A DNA stretch of 39,262 nt. It comes from Pseudoxanthomonas koreensis (GTDB lineage Bacteria > Pseudomonadota > Gammaproteobacteria > Xanthomonadales > Xanthomonadaceae). Positions 14,786 to 36,978 of this stretch are shown here, one piece after another; position 1 is the stretch's first letter; each line of letters begins with the position of its first letter. The notes beneath the pieces were generated by a model. It ran no database searches, had not been told where the DNA came from, and saw nothing but the letters and a program-made list of their open reading frames with translations. Location of the stretch: positions 1 to 39,262 of the forward strand of contig NZ_PDWM01000029.1 in the NCBI RefSeq assembly GCF_010093225.1, in the 5' to 3' direction. Both the position numbers and the translations under genes were made by a program.

Positions 14786-14916
14786 GTAGGAGCTCCCTTC
14801 AGGGGCGACCCGACCCCGCTGGAAGGCACTGCATTCAACGCGCAACCTCCGGATCGGTCGCCTTGAACGCGGCCTGCGTCCAGCCTCCTCGGGTCGCCCC
14901 TGAAGGGAGCTCCTAC
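14786..14916. repeat. Dispersed palindromic element, copy B
   Basis: Ends gtaggagctcccttcagggg (from 14786) and the exact inverted copy finishing gctcctac (14889-14916). The core holds CTGCATTCAACGCG (as copy A) and GGATCGGTCGCCTTGAACGC, which reappears reverse-complemented in copy D. It lies between the convergent GH43 and carboxylesterase genes, where the terminal hairpin could act as a bidirectional transcript end. Confidence 0.85.
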
Positions 14917-25827: not shown

Positions 25828-26195
25828 TCGCATCGACCGGTTCAGTCGGATGAAGTGTTCACAATTCTGAAGGTTTCCCCGTTTGTCCGGTTGTGGCCTG
25901 CCATGGCGTTAGATCGGAATACGACAGGGCATTCGTTGGACCGGGAAACAGCAGGCCGGGCGCACCACATCGCAGGTGCGCCGCGGGGGAACCAACGAGT
26001 CGAGTCGCACATGCAATCCGCCCTGTTCTGCCCGATCCGGTGATCGGCGCGATTCCGTGACCTGCCGCCGCCACTGGTGCGTCGGATCCCTGTCACGGAG
26101 CGATGGCAGGCTGTGCCGACGCTCGCCCCCCCGGGTGACCGTCATTGGGAGCATTCCCCGCAGTCGGATGACACAGGGTGCAGGAGCAAGGAACG
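25828..26195. other. 368-base non-coding gap upstream of the sigma-54 activator
   Basis: No convincing gene on either strand. It contains a 7-base inverted repeat GCGCACC / GGTGCGC (25960-25966, 25975-25981) and a relatively AT-rich start (25850-25890, TGTTCACAATTCTGAAGG) that may hold the activator's promoter, but no clear -35/-10 pair or sigma-54 site. It separates the pectin locus from the amyloid locus. Confidence 0.5.
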
Positions 26196-27515
<1,320 letters not shown>

Positions 27516-27607: not shown

Positions 27608-27677
27608 GGGGTCGCCCCTGAAGGGAGCCCCTACAAAGCAGCGCCTTTTGTAGGAGCTCCCTTCAGGGGCGACCCGA
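27608..27677. repeat. Dispersed palindromic element, inside-out pair of ends (copy C)
   Basis: Two ends of the element facing each other: GGTCGCCCCTGAAGGGAGCC up to CTAC (27634), then GTAGGAGCTCCCTTCAGGGG from 27650. The orientation is opposite to copies A, B and D (GTAG ends inside, not outside). Together they form a stem of about 24 base pairs with a TTTT-containing loop between the convergent activator and fapF-like genes, a likely bidirectional transcript end. Confidence 0.8.
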
Positions 27678-27749: not shown

Positions 27750-29099
27750 CTACAGGCTGTACGGAATCCTGAAACCAAGGCTGAAATCCGGCGCATCCGG
27801 GGTCAGGCCGATACCGAGTATCCCCACGATCGTCGCCTCCGGGCTCAGCGCGTGGGTGACGCCCAGGTTGAACATCGCCGCATTGGCATCGCTTCCAATC
27901 ACCTTTCTCCACGGGCTACCCTCATAACGGGTCTGCGCGCGCGCGCTGAGCCGGTTGCTCAGCGACATGCTGAAGCTCGTACGCTCGTTGAAGGCGAAAG
28001 CCACACCGGCGCCGTAGTAGAACGAATCGCCCAGCTTCACATCGCCCGGATTGACCGTGTCGGGGTTGGTATCGAGATCGTCGAAGCTGGCCTCGAACGA
28101 ATAGGTGTAGCCGATGTTGCCGAACAGGATCGCCGGGTCGGTGGTCTTCACCGCCGACACGCCGATGCTGGCCTGCCAGACCCCGTTGCCGGTCGGCTGC
28201 TCGTCCGGTATGGCGAAGCGGACGTAGTCGTCGTCGTCACGCTCGAGCACGGTCCACGGGATCCCGTACGGCTCGCGCCCGGTCGGCGCGGTGACGCCGA
28301 AGTTGAGCACGGTCTCGGGCCGGCTGCCCTGCTCGGGAAGCAGCAGGTAGTTGGCGCTCAGGGTGACATCGCCGATGCCGCTGCCGGTGGTCTCTTCCTG
28401 CGCGATCGCCGCCGCCGCGCCACCCGCGCCGCCCTTCTGGTAGACCGTCTTCCGGGCGACGTACGGCACGTCCATGTTCAGGCTCAGCCGTGGGCCGATG
28501 CCCCAGCGCGCCGCCAGGTTGTAGTTCAGGGTGTCGGATTCGACATTCTCGATGGCGATGTTGCCCAGGAAGATCGCATCGAGAGCAAGGAAGCCATTGA
28601 GGGTGAGCTGCTTGCGGTCGTAGCGGTTGTAGGTGAGGCTGTTTTCTATCACCAGGCTCTGGTCGAACAGGGTCCGGGTCTGCCGCTTCACGTCGGCCAC
28701 GCTGCGGCTCATCGCTTCGCTGCGCGCCTGCTCGGCTTCGGCCGCAGTGCTGGCATAACCTTCCTGCGTGGGCGGCGGCTGAGCTGTCGCCGGCGACGGC
28801 GCGGCCGGGACGGCGGCGACCGGCGCGACCGCACTGTCGGTGACGGCGGCGGGCACCTTGCCCGCCAGCCGCGCCTGCAGCGCCTGCACCTGCATGTCGA
28901 GCTCGCGAAGGCGCCGCACCTCCTGGGCATAAGCGGTCTTCAGCTCGGCCAGCTGCTGGCTCAGCTGGCGCAGTTCGGCCTGGTCGGCCGGCGTACCGGT
29001 CTGCGCGGAGGCCAACGGCGCGGCCAGCGACGCGCCCAGTGCGGTCAGGATGGCCAGGCGCAGGGCCGGGAGGGATACCACCGTCGTCTTCCTGATCAC
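27750..29099 (-). CDS. fapF: FapF-like outer-membrane amyloid-secretion channel
   Basis: A 449-residue protein with the layout of FapF, the trimeric outer-membrane pore for Fap amyloid subunits. It has a signal peptide (1-32), a heptad-rich coiled coil (about 38-80, ELRQLSQQLAELKTAYAQEV onward), a Pro/Ala-rich linker (82-112), a short helical plug-like segment (115-150) and a beta-barrel (about 150-449) with alternating aromatic strands ending in FSLGFRIPYSL. The start is a GTG (29099) behind AGGAG. It is the last gene of six in the order fapA-F. The call rests on domain order plus operon position; sequence identity to Pseudomonas FapF was not computed. A general transporter of the phenol-degradation/MetA barrel family is the alternative. 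Confidence 0.8.
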   Translation of the reverse strand: MIRKTTVVSLPALRLAILTALGASLAAPLASAQTGTPADQAELRQLSQQLAELKTAYAQEVRRLRELDMQVQALQARLAGKVPAAVTDSAVAPVAAVPAAPSPATAQPPPTQEGYASTAAEAEQARSEAMSRSVADVKRQTRTLFDQSLVIENSLTYNRYDRKQLTLNGFLALDAIFLGNIAIENVESDTLNYNLAARWGIGPRLSLNMDVPYVARKTVYQKGGAGGAAAAIAQEETTGSGIGDVTLSANYLLLPEQGSRPETVLNFGVTAPTGREPYGIPWTVLERDDDDYVRFAIPDEQPTGNGVWQASIGVSAVKTTDPAILFGNIGYTYSFEASFDDLDTNPDTVNPGDVKLGDSFYYGAGVAFAFNERTSFSMSLSNRLSARAQTRYEGSPWRKVIGSDANAAMFNLGVTHALSPEATIVGILGIGLTPDAPDFSLGFRIPYSL

Positions 29100-29138
29100 G
29101 AGTTTCTCCTGTGCCTGCCCTGGCCTGCTTGCGGTTGT

Positions 29139-29936
29139 TCAGTAGCCGATGGCGATGCCACGGCTCAGCGCGATCGCCTGGGCCACGTTCTGGCCCAGCG
29201 CCGCGCGGCCCTGCGACGTGTTCCGGACCAGGTCCAGTTCCATCCGGTTGCTGACCTGCTGGCCGTCGGTCGCCAGCTGGATGGTCTGGCCCATGCCGCT
29301 GCGGCTGATCCACTGTTCCACCGCCCCGTGGCCATCGATCTGCAGGAGCACGCGGGCGATGTTGTTCTCCACCGAAGCCACCGCGTTCATGCCCGGGGCC
29401 GAAGCCGTGGCGACGGTGCTGGCGGCAAGGCCGGCGGGCGGCGCTTCCGGCGGCGCCTGGCGCTCGGTCACGGTGATCTGGGCCGTGTTCTGGGCGACAT
29501 TGCCGTCGCCGGCGACCTGCACGCTCTGGACCACGCCGGTGACGTTGGCCAGGCCCGCATTGTCGATCTCGCGCTGCCCGGACGGCGGCGGCGGCGGCGC
29601 ATCGATCGCGGTGATGCTGACGTGCGGCTGGAAGGTCACGACCGGTTTGCCCGGCTGGCGCACATCCATGGTCACGGTCATGCTGCTCGTCAGCTGCTGC
29701 CCGGCATCGTTCTGCCAGGTCGACACCATGGTCACGCCGAACCAGGCCACAGTGTTGCTGCTGACCGTATAGCGGCCGCGCATGTCGCCCATTTCCTCGT
29801 CGCTCAATTCAACCAGCCCGCTGCCGTTGCCCACGGGGACGGGCGGCGGCCTTTCGGCCTCCTGGGCCAGGACGGGCAGCGCCACGGGGGTGGCGGCCAG
29901 GCCGATGGCCAGCCTCAGGATGCGTTTTCCGTTCAT
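29139..29936 (-). CDS. fapE: FapE-like secreted/chaperone component of the amyloid system
   Basis: A 265-residue secreted protein (signal peptide 1-24, ending VLAQ). Residues 44-55 read LSDEEMGDMRGR, similar to a double-glycine leader. Later there are beta-rich segments, among them NVTGVVQSVQVAGDGNVAQN (about 131-150), which resembles amyloid or curlin-type repeats with regularly spaced Gln and Asn, and a Pro-rich spacer (APPPPPSG). No cysteine is visible. The ATG (29936) has AGGAGG in front, overlapping the fapD stop. It lies between the C39 peptidase and the FapF-like channel, the position of fapE, a minor fibril and export component in Pseudomonas. The assignment is mainly positional. Confidence 0.65.
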   Translation of the reverse strand: MNGKRILRLAIGLAATPVALPVLAQEAERPPPVPVGNGSGLVELSDEEMGDMRGRYTVSSNTVAWFGVTMVSTWQNDAGQQLTSSMTVTMDVRQPGKPVVTFQPHVSITAIDAPPPPPSGQREIDNAGLANVTGVVQSVQVAGDGNVAQNTAQITVTERQAPPEAPPAGLAASTVATASAPGMNAVASVENNIARVLLQIDGHGAVEQWISRSGMGQTIQLATDGQQVSNRMELDLVRNTSQGRAALGQNVAQAIALSRGIAIGY

Positions 29937-29948
29937 GTCGCGGTCCTC

Positions 29949-30665
29949 CTAGAACAGGTCGGCATGGCTGAAGCCGAAATCGATCAGCTCGGCATCGGTG
30001 ATCGGGCCCTGCCGCGCATACAACGCCCTTGCGCTGGGCTTGGTACTGGGTTGCAGCAATACGGTGTTGCGGTCGAAGTCCGAGCCGATCACGACGAACA
30101 CGGCGCGCGACGGCCACGACTCGAGGAATGCGGCCAACGGCATGATCCGGTTTCCGAGCATGGGATCGCCGATTTCGACCTGGTCGCCGTTGACCTGCTT
30201 GAGCACGACGAAATGGCGGAAGCCGTTCACGTCCATCAGCACCAGGCTCGGTACGCGCAGGTTGCGCAGCCGTGCCTCGTCGACCCGGTATCCGCGCCCG
30301 CGCATGCCCAGCGATTCGACGTAGCGCTTGATGTCGAGCAGCGAGAATCCGCGCTCCTTGACGATTTCCGGATCGGCGACGGAAAGCATGCCTTCGATCA
30401 CCGTGTTCTCGTCGGCATCCAGGTGGTAGGCATAGCGCAGAATGGTGGCCAGCGACGCGGCGCCGCAGCTGTAGTCGGTCTGCTGCCGCACCAGGTTGCG
30501 GAAGCGCGACTCGCGCATGCTTTCCACCGGGACGCGGTATAGCGCGCCGTTCGGCAGAACCCCGGAGAAGGCGACGTCGGCCGCGCGCGAGGGCCATGCG
30601 ACGAGCGCGGACAGCGCCAGCAGCAGCGCCACGCGGAGCAGGCTCGGGGACAGGGGGCGCGACAT
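29949..30665 (-). CDS. fapD: FapD-like C39-family cysteine peptidase
   Basis: A 238-residue periplasmic protein with signal peptide (1-29) and a peptidase C39 domain: oxyanion Gln and catalytic Cys67 in QQTDYSCGAASLATIL (61-76), catalytic His151 in GFRHFVVLK and Asp167 in IGDPML. C39 peptidases normally sit on bacteriocin ABC exporters and cut leaders after Gly-Gly; the stand-alone form without ABC domain is the FapD type, required for Fap fibril export in Pseudomonas. The catalytic triad is intact. The ATG (30665) is preceded by CAGGA. It follows fapC after a gap of 171 bases containing two strong hairpins and precedes fapE by 12 bases. Possible cleavage motifs are seen in the FapA- and FapE-like proteins. 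Confidence 0.88.
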   Translation of the reverse strand: MSRPLSPSLLRVALLLALSALVAWPSRAADVAFSGVLPNGALYRVPVESMRESRFRNLVRQQTDYSCGAASLATILRYAYHLDADENTVIEGMLSVADPEIVKERGFSLLDIKRYVESLGMRGRGYRVDEARLRNLRVPSLVLMDVNGFRHFVVLKQVNGDQVEIGDPMLGNRIMPLAAFLESWPSRAVFVVIGSDFDRNTVLLQPSTKPSARALYARQGPITDAELIDFGFSHADLF

Positions 30666-30736
30666 GGCGGATTCCTGTAACAGCTACGTCGAGAGAGAAC
30701 GCATCCGGGTTCATCCACCGGACACCGGAAGTGGAA

Positions 30737-30802
30737 GCCCCGCCCCGCGGGGGAGGCGGGGCGGGGCGTTCCGTGATGTCCCGGCCACGGCGGATGGCCG
30801 GG
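30737..30802 (-). other. Two stem-loops between fapC and fapD
   Basis: A perfect 12-base stem GCCCCGCCCCGC / GCGGGGCGGGGC (30737-30748, 30756-30767) and an 8-base stem CCCGGCCA / TGGCCGGG (30780-30787, 30795-30802), with no T-run. Likely a partial terminator or 3' stabiliser that lets subunit mRNA (fapABC) exceed that of the export genes (fapDEF). Role inferred from position. Confidence 0.6.
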
Positions 30803-30836
30803 AGTCACCCTTTGCCGTCCTTGCGGACGCGATCTG

Positions 30837-32675
30837 TCAGCCGCCCGGACCACCAGTGCCCGGCTGGGCGACCGCCAGCGACAGGCTGTTGGACTGCTGG
30901 TTGCCGGTACCGGCCGAGATGTTCACGCCGATGTTGCCCGTCGCGCTCTGGAACGCAGCGCCCGAAAGCGTCGCCGAATTGGACGCGTCGGAAACGGTAT
31001 CCAGGGTCGGCAAGGCCAGCAGGCCGGAGAGCGAGGCGGTCAGTTCCGCGTTGCCCAGTTCATTGAAGGTGATATCGCCACCTTCCGTGGTCTTCCAGGT
31101 GCCTTTCTCGTCGGTGTCGAATGCGATGCCGCCGACGCCATCGGCGTACGGGTTGGCGACCGCGTTCTGGATTTCGTTATCCATGTCGAGATGGCCCGTC
31201 GTACCGCCATTGGGATGGTTGAGTGCGCCATTCCAGGAGTCCAGATAGAAATTGTCCTTCTGGTAGGCGTTGCCGCGGCCCTCGTAAGTGCCGCTGGCGC
31301 GGCCACTGTAGGAACCGATCGCGCCACCCAGTTTGCCGGTGACCGCGCCGGTCAGGTTCACCGCGACCTCTTCCAGGCCTTCCCTGACCTTCGGTGCATT
31401 GGTGACCGTGTTGCCGGCGGACACCTGGTTGGTGCTGACCGCCGCCGACGCATAGCTCGCGGTAGCCACGGAAGCCGCCAGCGAGTTCTTCTGCTGGTTG
31501 TTGTTGCCCGAGGTGACGTTGACGCCAACGTTGCCGCTCGCAGCGTTGAAGGCGTTGTCGCCGACCGAAGCGGTATTGGCCACGCCCAGGTTCGAGGTCT
31601 GGTTTCCGGCCCCGGTCTGCTGCACGAAGACCTTCGAGTCGGCCAGGCCAAACGCGAAGCTGGCGTCCGCGGCCGACAGTGCGGCGGCGTTGTCCTGCTG
31701 GTTGTTGTCGCCGGCACCGACGTTGAAGTGCAGGTTGCCCGAAGCCTCAGAGGCGACGTCGTCGGAGATGGATGCGTCGTTGCTCAGCTCGTCATTGGCA
31801 CCGACGTTGCCGCCAGTGGCCTGACGGTTGTCGATCACCGCAATCGCAGCCGAATCGATCTCCAGGTCGCCGGACACGGTCGGGCTTCCGGTGAAGTTGA
31901 TGCTCGAGGTCAGCGACAGGTCGGACTCTAGTTCGGCCGAAACGCCATGCTCATCCACTTCCTTGTCGATCGTGATGTCGTGGTCGACGAAGACCACTTC
32001 ATTGTGGTCGATGTCGGTGTCGACGAAGTTGCGCTCCCAGTTGAACTCGATGTTCGCCGAGGCGTTGAACTCCTTGTTCACCTCGGTATTGATCGAGGTG
32101 TTCTTGTCGAAGTTGTCGTTGTAGGTCGTGGCGACGTCGTGGGTGGCGGTGGAAGTCCGCTCGAACGTATCGCTGTAGGAGATGTCCGACGTAAGCGACT
32201 TGTCCACCGTGTCGCTATAGGAAACGTCCGACGTGAACGACTTGTCCACGGTGTCGCTGTAGGACGTATCGACGGCATGGTTGGCGGTGGAGGTCCTGTC
32301 GAACGAATCGCTGTAGGAGATGTCCGACGTAAGCGACTTGTCCACCGTGTCGCTGTAGGACGTGTCGATCGCATGGTTGGCCGTGGTGGTCCGGTCGAAC
32401 GTATCGCTGTAGATCAGGTCCACGTCCTTGTTCACATCCGATGTATAGGTATCGCTGACGACCACGTCCACGTCCTTGTTGACATCCGACGTGTAGGTCT
32501 TGTTCGTGGTCAGGTTGGTGGCGATGTTCGTATCGATGTTCGTATCGATATTGGTGTTGATCGCGGTGTTCAACGTCGCGGTGGGGGTTGGGGTGGGGCT
32601 TTCGCTTTCGGCGCTGGCAGCTGTCGCGGCGGTAATCGCCACGGCAAGCACGGTCCACTTCAGGGTCCTTTTCAT
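30837..32675 (-). CDS. fapC: FapC-like major amyloid subunit with extended tandem-repeat region
   Basis: A 612-residue secreted protein (signal peptide 1-22, ending ASA). Three Fap-type amyloid repeats are plain: GNLHFNVGAGDNNQQDNAAA (313-332), GNVGVNVTSGNNNQQKNSLA (381-400) and GNIGVNISAGTGNQQSNSLS (580-599), separated by linkers of about 48 and 179 residues. Before them lies an unusual Thr/Ser/Asp-rich region (about 35-200) built of 14- and 18-residue units such as SYSDTVDKSLTSDI and SYSDSFDRTSTANHAVDT. There is no cysteine, so the C-terminal CxxC of Pseudomonas FapC is absent. It should form the bulk of extracellular fibrils used in biofilms. The ATG follows GAGAGAGGA. Base composition is less GC-rich than in neighbouring genes, partly from the Asn/Thr/Asp content. 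Confidence 0.87.
   Translation of the reverse strand: MKRTLKWTVLAVAITAATAASAESESPTPTPTATLNTAINTNIDTNIDTNIATNLTTNKTYTSDVNKDVDVVVSDTYTSDVNKDVDLIYSDTFDRTTTANHAIDTSYSDTVDKSLTSDISYSDSFDRTSTANHAVDTSYSDTVDKSFTSDVSYSDTVDKSLTSDISYSDTFERTSTATHDVATTYNDNFDKNTSINTEVNKEFNASANIEFNWERNFVDTDIDHNEVVFVDHDITIDKEVDEHGVSAELESDLSLTSSINFTGSPTVSGDLEIDSAAIAVIDNRQATGGNVGANDELSNDASISDDVASEASGNLHFNVGAGDNNQQDNAAALSAADASFAFGLADSKVFVQQTGAGNQTSNLGVANTASVGDNAFNAASGNVGVNVTSGNNNQQKNSLAASVATASYASAAVSTNQVSAGNTVTNAPKVREGLEEVAVNLTGAVTGKLGGAIGSYSGRASGTYEGRGNAYQKDNFYLDSWNGALNHPNGGTTGHLDMDNEIQNAVANPYADGVGGIAFDTDEKGTWKTTEGGDITFNELGNAELTASLSGLLALPTLDTVSDASNSATLSGAAFQSATGNIGVNISAGTGNQQSNSLSLAVAQPGTGGPGG
32105..32500 (-). repeat. In-gene tandem repeat of the FapC-like subunit
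   Basis: Near-identical DNA blocks begin at 32162, 32300 and 32396 (sharing CGAACG(T/A)ATCGCTGTAG), offset by 138 and 96 bases, that is 46 and 32 codons (14+14+18 and 14+18 residue units). The high DNA identity indicates recent duplication and likely copy-number variation between strains. Confidence 0.85.
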
Positions 32676-32715
32676 GGTGTCCTCTCTCTTGCTCTCGGTT
32701 GGTTGGATTGCCGCC

Positions 32716-33402
32716 TCACGGGCCGGTCGAGATCGACAACATCAGGCTGTTGCCGGTCGCGTTGGCCGAACCCGCGATCTGGTTGAGCTGCAGCACGCCC
32801 TCGAATCCGCGCAGCGCGGTGGCTTCCACTGCCACGTTGCGGCTGGCGGTCTTGCCCGCCGGATTGCGGGCGCGTTGCCGCTCTGCCGACGCGAAGGCGC
32901 TGGCGGACATCGGTCCGTCCTGCCCCTCGCGTGTGCCCTGTTGCGCCACCACCATCGACACCGCATTGAGTTCCGCGTTGCCGCTGCCGCTGGCCTGGTT
33001 GATGGAAGCGATTCCGCTGGCGCCGGCCAGGGCCGAGCCGCCGATCACCGCGCTGGCCCGCGCCGGTGCGTCGTACACGTCGGCATCGCTGCGCTGGCGC
33101 GCGTCCACCGTGGCGATGGCGTAGCTGCCGACGGCGATGGCGCGCAGGTTGGCCTGCTGGTTGAGGTCGCCGGCGGCCTGGTTCACCGCGATCGCGCCGG
33201 TGCTGCCGGCCAATGCGTTCTGGTCGATCCGGGTCTGGGCAAGGTAGCCGAGCATTTCGGCGTAGTCGTCGCGCACCTGGGCCTGGCCCGGGCCCGGCAG
33301 CAGCAGTGTCGCGGCGAACGCGGCGGCGCACAGCAGCCACCAGGCCGGCGCCGTGGTCCGGGCGCGGATGGCCGCGGCGCGGCGAGGCTGGCGCGAGGTC
33401 AT
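32716..33402 (-). CDS. fapB: FapB-like amyloid nucleator subunit
   Basis: A 228-residue protein with an Arg-rich then hydrophobic N-terminus (about 20-42, WWLLCAAAFAATLLLPGPGQAQ), a probable signal peptide. Three imperfect Fap-type repeats are visible: GAIAVNQAAGDLNQQANLRA (69-88), GIASINQASGSGNAELNAVS (130-149) and GVLQLNQIAGSANATGNSLM (202-221). FapB is the minor subunit thought to nucleate FapC fibres. The only cysteine is inside the signal peptide, so the mature chain has no CxxC. The ATG at 33402 lies two bases after the fapA stop; a GTG at 33408 overlapping that stop (GTGA) is the alternative. Position and repeats make the call firm, though identity to Pseudomonas FapB was not measured. 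Confidence 0.82.
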   Translation of the reverse strand: MTSRQPRRAAAIRARTTAPAWWLLCAAAFAATLLLPGPGQAQVRDDYAEMLGYLAQTRIDQNALAGSTGAIAVNQAAGDLNQQANLRAIAVGSYAIATVDARQRSDADVYDAPARASAVIGGSALAGASGIASINQASGSGNAELNAVSMVVAQQGTREGQDGPMSASAFASAERQRARNPAGKTASRNVAVEATALRGFEGVLQLNQIAGSANATGNSLMLSISTGP

Positions 33403-33404
33403 GC

Positions 33405-33908
33405 TCACGGACCCTTGCCCGGAGTGACGCCGGCACCCAGCGGGAAGTGGGAGAGCGCGCCGGTCACGGTCGGGGCGATACCGCGGGTGGCGCCCGTGAC
33501 CGAGCCGGTGGCGCCACCGACGGTGCTGATGAATCCGCTTCCGGACAGCACGCCATCGGGACCGGTGGTCCTGCCGAGCGAACCCTGCACCGCCCGGTCG
33601 GTCAGCTGGGTGGGCATGCTCGTGCGATCGGCCGCGGCAACCTGCAGCTGTCCGGACGAAAGTTCGGCGAACTCGTCGTCGGACATCTCACCCGTTCCCA
33701 GGGTGCCATGCACTTCGCGGTTCGGCTTCGGATCGACGATCAGAGCAATGCCGGGTGGCGCCGGGCGGTATGCCGGACGCGCGCTGACGTCGCGCAGCAG
33801 CACCATCTCGCCCTTCTTCGGGTGCACGCCGGCATATGCCTCGGCCGCATGGGCGACCGGCGCGGCGAGCAGCAGCACCGGCAGGCAGGCAATGAGATGT
33901 CGTGACAT
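33405..33908 (-). CDS. fapA: FapA-like first protein of the amyloid operon
   Basis: A 167-residue secreted protein (signal peptide 1-22, ending AHAA). It has Pro-rich and Gly/Thr-rich parts; residues 74-86 read EMSDDEFAELSSG, resembling a double-glycine-type leader and the LSDEEMGDMRG segment of the FapE-like protein. The C-terminal third (GSGFISTVGGATGSVTGATR, then GIAPTVTGAL) is low in charge and may be disordered. FapA in Pseudomonas is a small secreted component or chaperone that influences which subunit enters the fibre. The call is mainly positional: it is the first gene behind the sigma-54 promoter and directly precedes fapB. Confidence 0.65.
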   Translation of the reverse strand: MSRHLIACLPVLLLAAPVAHAAEAYAGVHPKKGEMVLLRDVSARPAYRPAPPGIALIVDPKPNREVHGTLGTGEMSDDEFAELSSGQLQVAAADRTSMPTQLTDRAVQGSLGRTTGPDGVLSGSGFISTVGGATGSVTGATRGIAPTVTGALSHFPLGAGVTPGKGP

Positions 33909-33940: not shown

Positions 33941-33956
33941 CGCACGACCCGTGCCA
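33941..33956 (-). promoter_or_regulatory. Sigma-54 (-24/-12) promoter of the fap operon
   Basis: Minus strand TGGCACGGGTCGTGCG: perfect TGGCAC at -24 and TGC at -12 with exactly ten bases between the invariant GG and GC, matching consensus TGGCAC-N5-TTGCW. It ends 33 bases before the fapA ATG. Together with a sigma-54 activator gene in the same locus this is a strong promoter candidate. Confidence 0.8.
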
Positions 33957-36067: not shown

Positions 36068-36849
36068 GCGCCCGGCTCAGCGTCAACGTCAACAAGGTCG
36101 CCGTGCTGCGCAACTCGCGCGGCGGTCACGAGCCGGACGTGGCCGCCGCCGCGGAAGCCTGCCTGCGCGCCGGTGCGCACGGCATCACCGTGCACCCGCG
36201 CCCGGACCGGCGCCACATCGTCGCCGAGGACCTGCCGCCGCTGGCCGCGCTGGCCGCGCGGTTCGACGTGGAACTGAACGTCGAGGGCAATCCGTTCGCG
36301 CCGCCGCGGCCGGGCTACCCGGGCCTGCTGGCGCTGTGCGAGGGGGTGCGCCCGGCCCAGGTGACCCTGGTCCCCGACGACGACGGCCAGCTCACCTCGG
36401 ACCACGGGTTCACCTTCGACGGCGACCTCGCCCCGCTGGCCGCGCAGGTCGCCGCCTTCGCCGCGCTCGGCTGCCGGGTCAGCCTGTTCGTCGATGCCGG
36501 CGTGCCCGGGCTCGAGCGCGCAGCTGCGCTGGGAGCGGAGCGGATCGAGATCTACACCGGCCCCTACGCCGAAGCCTTCGCTGCCGGCGATGCCGGCGCC
36601 GCGCTGGCGGCCTGCATCGATACCGCGCGCCGCGCCCAGGCCGCCGGGCTGGGCGTGAACGCCGGCCACGACCTCTCGCAGGCCAATCTCGGCGCCTTCC
36701 TGGCGGCGGTGCCCGGCGTGCAGGAGGTGTCGATCGGCCACGCCCTGGTGGGCGAGGCGCTGTACGCCGGTCTGGACGCCACGGTCCGCGGCTACCTGTC
36801 GGTCATCGACGGCGCTCCGCCCGCCCCGTCTCCGTCTCCTGTCCTGTAG
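36064..36849 (+). CDS. pdxJ: Pyridoxine 5'-phosphate synthase
   Basis: A 261-residue PdxJ, a cytoplasmic TIM barrel that condenses 1-deoxyxylulose 5-phosphate with 3-amino-2-oxopropyl phosphate to pyridoxine 5'-phosphate (vitamin B6). Visible are [17 protein letters not shown] (5-21), [22 protein letters not shown] with the conserved Glu, [37 protein letters not shown] and [17 protein letters not shown]. All are family landmarks. In Xanthomonas pdxJ also lies next to exbD2. The last residues (about 250-261, [11 protein letters not shown]) are an unusual Pro/Ser tail, and the stop codon TAG belongs to the GTAG end of a dispersed palindromic element, so the natural C-terminus may have been replaced. 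Confidence 0.95.
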
Positions 36850-36978
36850 GAGCTCCCTTCAGGGGCGACCCGAGGGGGCTTGAACCCAGCCGCGCTCAAG
36901 GCGACCGATCCGGGACGCTGTGGGTTGAACGCGGCTGCGTTCCGACGGGATCGGGTCGCCCCTGAAGGGAGCTCCTAC
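36846..36978. repeat. Dispersed palindromic element, copy D
   Basis: Ends GTAGGAGCTCCCTTCAGGGG (from 36846) and its exact inverted copy finishing GCTCCTAC (36951-36978). The core contains CTCAAGGCGACCGATCCGG, the reverse complement of a stretch in copy B. It begins at the base before the pdxJ TAG stop codon. Confidence 0.85.

Follow-up and report, generated by a model that had tools for sequence, protein, structure and literature searches.

The closest described relatives of the locus treated here are the fapABCDEF functional-amyloid operons of Pseudomonas. There the C39 protease FapD works in the periplasm; FapC is no longer secreted when its active site is mutated (C38A), and its target is called 'unclear' (PMC5557850). 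A 2025 review states that FapE and FapF are thought to be processed by FapD (PMC12822426). Within the Xanthomonadales, Fap was already in print in 2013 for Stenotrophomonas and Rhodanobacter (PMC3792158), and a 2018 review lists 25 further genera with Fap (PMC6173800). In the present work a fap operon was analysed in a stretch of 39,262 nucleotides, called the window below, from contig NZ_PDWM01000029.1 of Pseudoxanthomonas koreensis, and its FapE was found to carry a leader-like motif that is likely to be the place where FapD cuts.

The operon is complete and lies on the minus strand between 33908 and 27750, with its genes in the canonical order fapA to fapF. A sequence-only reading of this DNA had proposed the same six genes, had suggested a profile search of their products and had called the genome Xanthomonadaceae-like; the open reading frames (ORFs) lie at the coordinates it gave, each protein has its own Fap family as best NCBIfam match, and the genome can be called Pseudoxanthomonas-like. 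The six genes are as follows.

33405-33908, minus strand: fapA, 167 aa, putative periplasmic chaperone (NCBIfam FapA 7.1e-10)
32716-33408, minus strand: fapB, 230 aa, minor or nucleator subunit with three Fap-type repeats (NCBIfam FapB 1.4e-25)
30837-32675, minus strand: fapC, 612 aa, major fibre subunit (NCBIfam FapC 5.4e-51)
29949-30665, minus strand: fapD, 238 aa, exported stand-alone C39 peptidase (NCBIfam FapD 3.0e-77; Pfam Peptidase_C39 1.6e-19)
29139-29936, minus strand: fapE, 265 aa, secreted minor component (NCBIfam FapE 4.4e-29)
27750-29099, minus strand: fapF, 449 aa, outer-membrane barrel exporter, a trimer in Pseudomonas (NCBIfam FapF 7.2e-114)

All six ORFs are intact, and the successive intergenic gaps from fapA to fapF are -4, 40, 171, 12 and 39 nt. 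The source genome has one FapF, one strong FapD and a sigma-54 gene. The stand-alone C39 peptidase with an intact catalytic triad, also part of the sequence-only reading, was recovered in FapD (C67, H151, D167). Its coiled-coil plus barrel protein fared less evenly. The barrel is supported by the match of FapF residues 132-447 to the Pseudomonas FapF crystal chain 5o65 (E 1.5e-79), and for the N-terminal coiled coil the matches, at about residues 27-79, are weak and generic. From this set of matches the identity of the locus as Fap is as good as certain.

The motif on which the present argument turns lies near the N-terminus of FapE.

29772-29810, minus strand: FapE leader-like motif, residues 43-55, E-L-S-D-E-E-M-G-D-M-R-G-R, with the proposed FapD site before Y56

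Double-glycine leaders have hydrophobic residues at positions -12, -7 and -4 and Gly at -2, followed by Gly, Ala or Ser at -1. In the aligned columns of FapE, I/L/V at -12, L/M at -7, G at -2, R/K at -1 and Y/F/W at +1 are each present in all 152 distinct proteins, and a hydrophobic residue is present at -4 in 150 of them (173 ORFs gave 153 distinct sequences, one of which was dropped as an incomplete ORF). The motif therefore agrees with the consensus at -12, -7, -4 and -2 and departs from it at -1, where Arg or Lys stands in 152/152, and it can be described as a leader of double-glycine type with the second Gly replaced, which makes it no canonical member of that class. These counts were taken from the alignment columns; a stricter regular expression had matched 21 of 74 FapE and was too narrow when judged by the same columns. 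Part of the set are 20 ORFs from 19 genomes of a family that we call Pseudomonadaceae by inference (79 genomes searched), its member G457 having by far the highest OprF score in the class sample, 260.6 bits against 64 for the next genome. The motif is present in all 20, with its Gly at precursor residue 38-42 when starts are set by script, and the FapE of Aeromonas, which is separate from the set, has it as well (G-R-Y).

In a 103-row FapE alignment (rows less than 85% identical, ORFs above 320 aa excluded), full invariance ahead of residue 130 is listed for G54 alone. Only two of the 50 conserved-Gly columns of FapA to FapF fit the leader register, namely FapE G54 and a column within the catalytic domain of FapD, G148. 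FapA was considered as a second leader substrate and rejected, a similar stretch being found in one Xanthomonadaceae subclade and its Gly not being conserved over 62 FapA. An AlphaFold model of FapE built from the 103-sequence alignment (mean predicted local distance difference test, pLDDT, 79.4) places a helix at residues 46-55 and a confident beta domain from residue 62, with pLDDT below 50 at residues 56-58 and 1-4. FapE has been called a beta-solenoid on the basis of AlphaFold (PMC11787515). Moreover, published mass spectrometry (MS) singles out FapE as the only Fap protein whose N-terminal processing was complete, its N-terminal peptides being missing (PMC5557850). On these grounds the motif is probably the FapD cleavage site. 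A named cleavage site in FapE was not found in the accessible Fap literature, and it may be in print elsewhere.

A second line of evidence comes from a sister system. A FapF-type match is present in 121 of the 297 genomes of the family searched. It reaches at least 320 bits in 78 of these, source genome included (counted among the matches listed), and loci were retrieved from 61 of the 77 other genomes of this strong class. Fap is thus common in the family, and this, together with the earlier reports for Stenotrophomonas and Rhodanobacter (PMC3792158), qualifies the view of the sequence-only reading that the repertoire of the lineage appears little studied. The remaining 43 genomes score mostly at about 125-169 bits, and the ten loci opened at that level (L222-L231) all hold the sister system, of which one example is given.

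L222:6111-10725: Gly-rich protein, small protein with a GG leader, FapD-like C39 peptidase, FapE-like protein with a GG leader, FapF-like barrel

In each of the ten loci the FapD-like enzyme is preceded by a small exported protein, a FapE-like protein lies between this enzyme and the FapF-like barrel, and the leaders of both small proteins end in RGG. A gene for a Gly-rich protein lies upstream in the three loci whose ORFs were read (L222, L223 and L230). When the FapE and FapE-like families were compared with hhalign they aligned across the motif (94.4%, E 9.4e-8, 34 columns), with the canonical GG at the same position. The two small proteins of L222 are named by neither NCBIfam nor Pfam, the one barrel scanned scores 169 bits with NCBIfam FapF, and no match to FapB or FapC was found in the sister system. 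It was also met in a plasmid collection, where seven loci were opened of 18 matched, one of them being an Aeromonas Fap. Four of these loci (L241, L242, L244 and L245) have the FapE-like protein, always with GG, and the other small protein has GG in L244, GK in L241 and GR in L245, its start being unreadable in L242; the GK and GR forms belong to two sphingomonad records. This variation from GG to GK or GR within one family supports the view of the G-R/K of FapE as a modified double-glycine site. The Acinetobacter fil locus (L243) matched by its enzyme and barrel only, and Indioceanicola (L246) by its barrel only.

Some observations on these records are added for completeness. The leader-like N-terminal stretch of Acinetobacter FilA (L243:3569-4435) ends in Gly-Gln, and the C39 gene of the same locus reads as two ORFs. 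The Aeromonas caviae fap record (L240) bears the label of a plasmid but, at 4.9 Mb, is probably a chromosome. A contig titled Bacillus subtilis (L162) has a Stenotrophomonas-like fapF, 67% identical to that of the window, which is probably explained by contamination or a mislabel.

A limited literature search found no description of the sister system. Papers on FilB/FilC were looked for and none came up, and for Fap in Xanthomonadaceae a literature search gave a single off-topic paper. On balance we favour, with some reserve, the view that FapD-type enzymes define a post-Sec leader pathway, in which a soluble periplasmic C39 peptidase would take from exported proteins a second leader of double-glycine type (G-G or G-R/K) and so license passage through a FapF-type barrel. 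Besides Fap, the branch whose substrate would be FapE, there would be at least one further branch, having two proteins with GG leaders; it is met in Xanthomonadaceae as well as in records of Cupriavidus, Vibrio and sphingomonads.

In the enzyme itself C67, H151 and D167 are each invariant in 74/74 FapD, and the catalytic residues are identical between 81 FapD and the 10 sister enzymes. D236, in the C-terminal tail, is Asp or Glu in 79 of the 81 FapD and Gly or Ser in all 10 sister enzymes, and it is a possible partner for the Arg or Lys of FapE. A clear acidic pocket that would receive this residue was sought and rejected, D236 in the tail being the sole candidate. The C-terminus of FapD, D-A-E-L-I-D-F-G-F (residues 224-232; window 29970-29996), resembles the core of the FapE leader, and one may speculate that the tail acts as a pseudo-substrate.

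Several points weigh against cleavage of FapE by FapD at this site. Arg or Lys before the cut is non-canonical for C39 peptidases, whose sites are given as GG and sometimes GA in a paper that also describes the Fap proteins as being without canonical C39 sequences (PMC5557850). Other conserved FapD differences (e.g. K113, R122, L170) give no explanation of Arg/Lys at -1, and R122 would, if anything, disfavour a basic residue at the cut. The predicted helix has a low to moderate block-mean pLDDT of about 54-70. Bacteriocin-leader models gave no consistent match when compared with FapE and the sister proteins (two models, each matching one of 20 members at E of about 0.1), and none among the sister-system proteins. 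The hydrophobic -4 is lacking in the other small protein of L224 (one of ten) and in two of the four FapE-like proteins from plasmid records (L244 and L245). Many of the compared loci are close relatives, so that the counts are not independent. The gap left by MS in FapE is about 70 residues long (PMC5557850), against a site near residue 40 in the inferred Pseudomonadaceae; tryptic sites at 40, 46, 59 and 69 in 5 of the 20 FapE of that family could explain the gap, which is no proof. The periplasmic linker of FapF (residues 60-100), finally, was left open as a FapD target by the published MS (PMC5557850) and is named in reviews.

This last point leads to the most serious alternative, namely that the FapE motif is an uncut but conserved docking or folding element, in contact with FapF, FapD or the fibre end, and that FapD acts mainly on the FapF linker. 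A motif that is helical in the predicted structure would suit such a role, and there are C39-like domains that serve as chaperones and do not cut (PMC6173800). However, the motif stands in the register of C39 leaders and is matched in position by the GG of the sister system, none of the 18 conserved-Gly columns of FapF fits that register, and the active-site Cys of FapD is required (PMC5557850). A docking role is accordingly considered rather unlikely.

As to the fibre subunits, Fap repeats had been noted beforehand in two proteins and are borne out for FapC, with three cores at residues 313, 381 and 580, and for FapB, with three weaker ones at residues 71, 132 and 204; the number of proteins was an undercount, one repeat-like segment being present in FapE at residue 134. 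Three repeats were detected in 41 of the 42 long-type FapC, and in every one of these the first and second repeats are 68 aa apart. A subunit architecture differing from that of Pseudomonas had also been proposed, and for FapC this is real, its N-terminal segment being long and the CxxC of the C-terminus missing. Two features belong here.

31962-32609, minus strand: FapC N-terminal segment rich in Thr, Asp, Ser and Asn, about residues 23-238 (about 216 residues), ahead of the conserved part, from comparison of composition and length
30666-30836, minus strand: fapC-fapD intergenic region with strong hairpins rich in G+C but without a T run (RNA fold -87.6 kcal/mol, z -3.7)

Part of the N-terminal segment is encoded by tandem DNA repeats with periods of 42, 48, 96 and 138 nt and 85-87% match. 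The distance from the signal core to the first repeat is 307 residues, the fourth longest among the 32 of 42 long-type FapC in which it could be measured, the two largest (465 and 469) possibly still being start artefacts; this measure was used since upstream starts had made the longest ORFs of some loci too long to be relied on. According to a 2025 survey, length differences among FapC fall in linkers (PMC12392863). The C-terminal CxxC is present in 8/8 FapC of the inferred Pseudomonadaceae, and no Cys was found in the last 80 residues of any of the 42 long-type FapC; the CxxC is absent from some Pseudomonas FapC too (PMC3684753). Within 30666-30836 no terminator-like site is listed on the minus strand, and the hairpins could possibly set the subunit ratio. 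In another Xanthomonadaceae subclade (L072-L090) FapC is short, and of the 17 loci showing fapC 14 have two to four tandem copies of it, some second fapC ORFs being over-long through upstream starts.

The regulatory elements were not part of the sequence-only reading. They are the following.

26178-27515, plus strand: brfA-like gene for a sigma-54 enhancer-binding protein, 445 aa, convergent with fapF (Pfam Sigma54_activat 2.1e-69, HTH_8 8.7e-07)
33941-33956, minus strand: -24/-12 (sigma-54) promoter-like element TGGCACGGGTCGTGCG, 32 nt upstream of the ATG of fapA, from a sequence match

In Pseudomonas fluorescens PF07 brfA lies at the same place, and fap has a -24/-12 promoter and needs RpoN and BrfA (PMC9207406); RpoN dependence of fap is also given in PMC8202526, and PF07 BrfA senses cyclic di-GMP (c-di-GMP; PMC13101488). 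The protein of the window has an intact GAFTGA motif and a Fis-type helix-turn-helix, and it shares 38-46% identity with its positional counterpart in 8/8 inferred Pseudomonadaceae loci, all convergent. Among the 72 loci with fapE and fapF (three without one or the other were excluded) a script rule places the brfA-like gene in convergent orientation behind fapF in 53 and elsewhere in 14, and did not find it in 5. Within the window alone the -24/-12 pattern does not exceed chance (14 matches against 17.9 expected from shuffles). Upstream of fapA a similar element, scoring at least 18 of 20.5 points, occurs in 57 of 70 loci, window included, and in controls it occurs in 0/20 (cardiolipin synthase gene), 3/65 (brfA-like gene) and 0/73 (fapD), the score, weights and threshold being our own and chosen after the window site was seen. 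By analogy with PF07, control of fap by a BrfA-type activator is very likely in the source organism. One inverted pair of a 24-nt REP-like element (GTAGGAGCTCCCTTCAGGGGCGAC) sits between fapF and the brfA-like gene. The window has three such pairs (14786-14916, 27611-27673 and 36846-36978), and the genome has 30 copies at up to two mismatches, against none in a reversed control.

A point against a working Fap operon is that none of the six proteins reaches the curated (equivalog) NCBIfam cut-off. Pfam cut-offs are passed only by FapD (Peptidase_C39) and FapF (Phenol_MetA_deg, a barrel family). The NCBIfam cut-offs mirror Pseudomonas-like sequences and are a naming threshold, no biological trait, so that membership of Fap is kept and the divergence stated. 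That the locus is a diverged relative making another surface fibre, or a non-working one, would fit these sub-threshold scores and the long, CxxC-less FapC, but it is very improbable in view of the six intact ORFs in order, the conserved catalytic residues and repeats, the conserved regulator and promoter-like site, and the fact that the FapF cut-off is passed by 0/297 genomes of the family and that for FapE by 19 of 79 of the inferred Pseudomonadaceae.

The following mechanism can be proposed. A BrfA-like activator, c-di-GMP-responsive in P. fluorescens, would, together with sigma-54, drive transcription of fapA-F from the -24/-12 site, and the Fap proteins would cross the inner membrane by Sec, the subunits being chaperoned by FapA. 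FapD would then recognise the FapE leader helix (I/L/V at -12, L/M at -7, a hydrophobic residue at -4, G at -2) and cut after Gly-Arg/Lys, here R55|Y56, removing an N-terminal pro-segment. This cleavage would license FapB, FapC and FapE for passage through FapF, with FapC polymerising outside the cell. We infer from sequence where FapE is cut, that the cut licenses export, and how the system works in this bacterium. The locus is quite probably a complete, working Fap functional-amyloid operon of a Pseudoxanthomonas-like bacterium that functions in the way proposed. The family-wide comparison names a single testable FapE peptide bond for a protease whose target the accessible Fap literature leaves open, and the site links Fap to a second FapD/FapF-type system with textbook double-glycine leaders. 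If true, it explains the need for both FapD and FapE in secretion and gives a defined point for blocking Fap export.

The operon is an ordinary one, one more Fap locus of known type, and what is added to the sequence-only reading is the BrfA-like regulator with a promoter-like site for sigma-54, the Thr/Asp/Ser/Asn-rich segment and missing CxxC of FapC, and the motif of leader type in FapE. With Pseudomonas fapABCDEF it shares gene content and order, three FapC repeats, the C39 triad and the FapF barrel family and, in comparison with the inferred Pseudomonadaceae genomes, the convergent BrfA-like gene, the -24/-12 element and the FapE motif. It differs in a longer FapC N-terminal segment, in the lack of Cys in the last 80 residues and in family scores below the cut-offs. 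The Fap of Stenotrophomonas and Rhodanobacter (PMC3792158) also belongs to the Xanthomonadales and has the same operon layout, whereas the host here is Pseudoxanthomonas-like and its FapC has the fourth longest signal-to-repeat distance of 32 measured. The leader register and the peptidase family are those of the C39 double-glycine processing of bacteriocin ABC exporters, from which the system differs in that FapD is exported and free-standing, the substrate crosses by Sec first and -1 of FapE is Arg or Lys. The sister system and Acinetobacter Fil (FilB/FilC) likewise have a C39 peptidase beside a FapF-like barrel, the former with GG-leader small proteins, and the sister system is set apart from Fap by its large Gly-rich protein (L222, L223 and L230) in place of any match to FapB or FapC.

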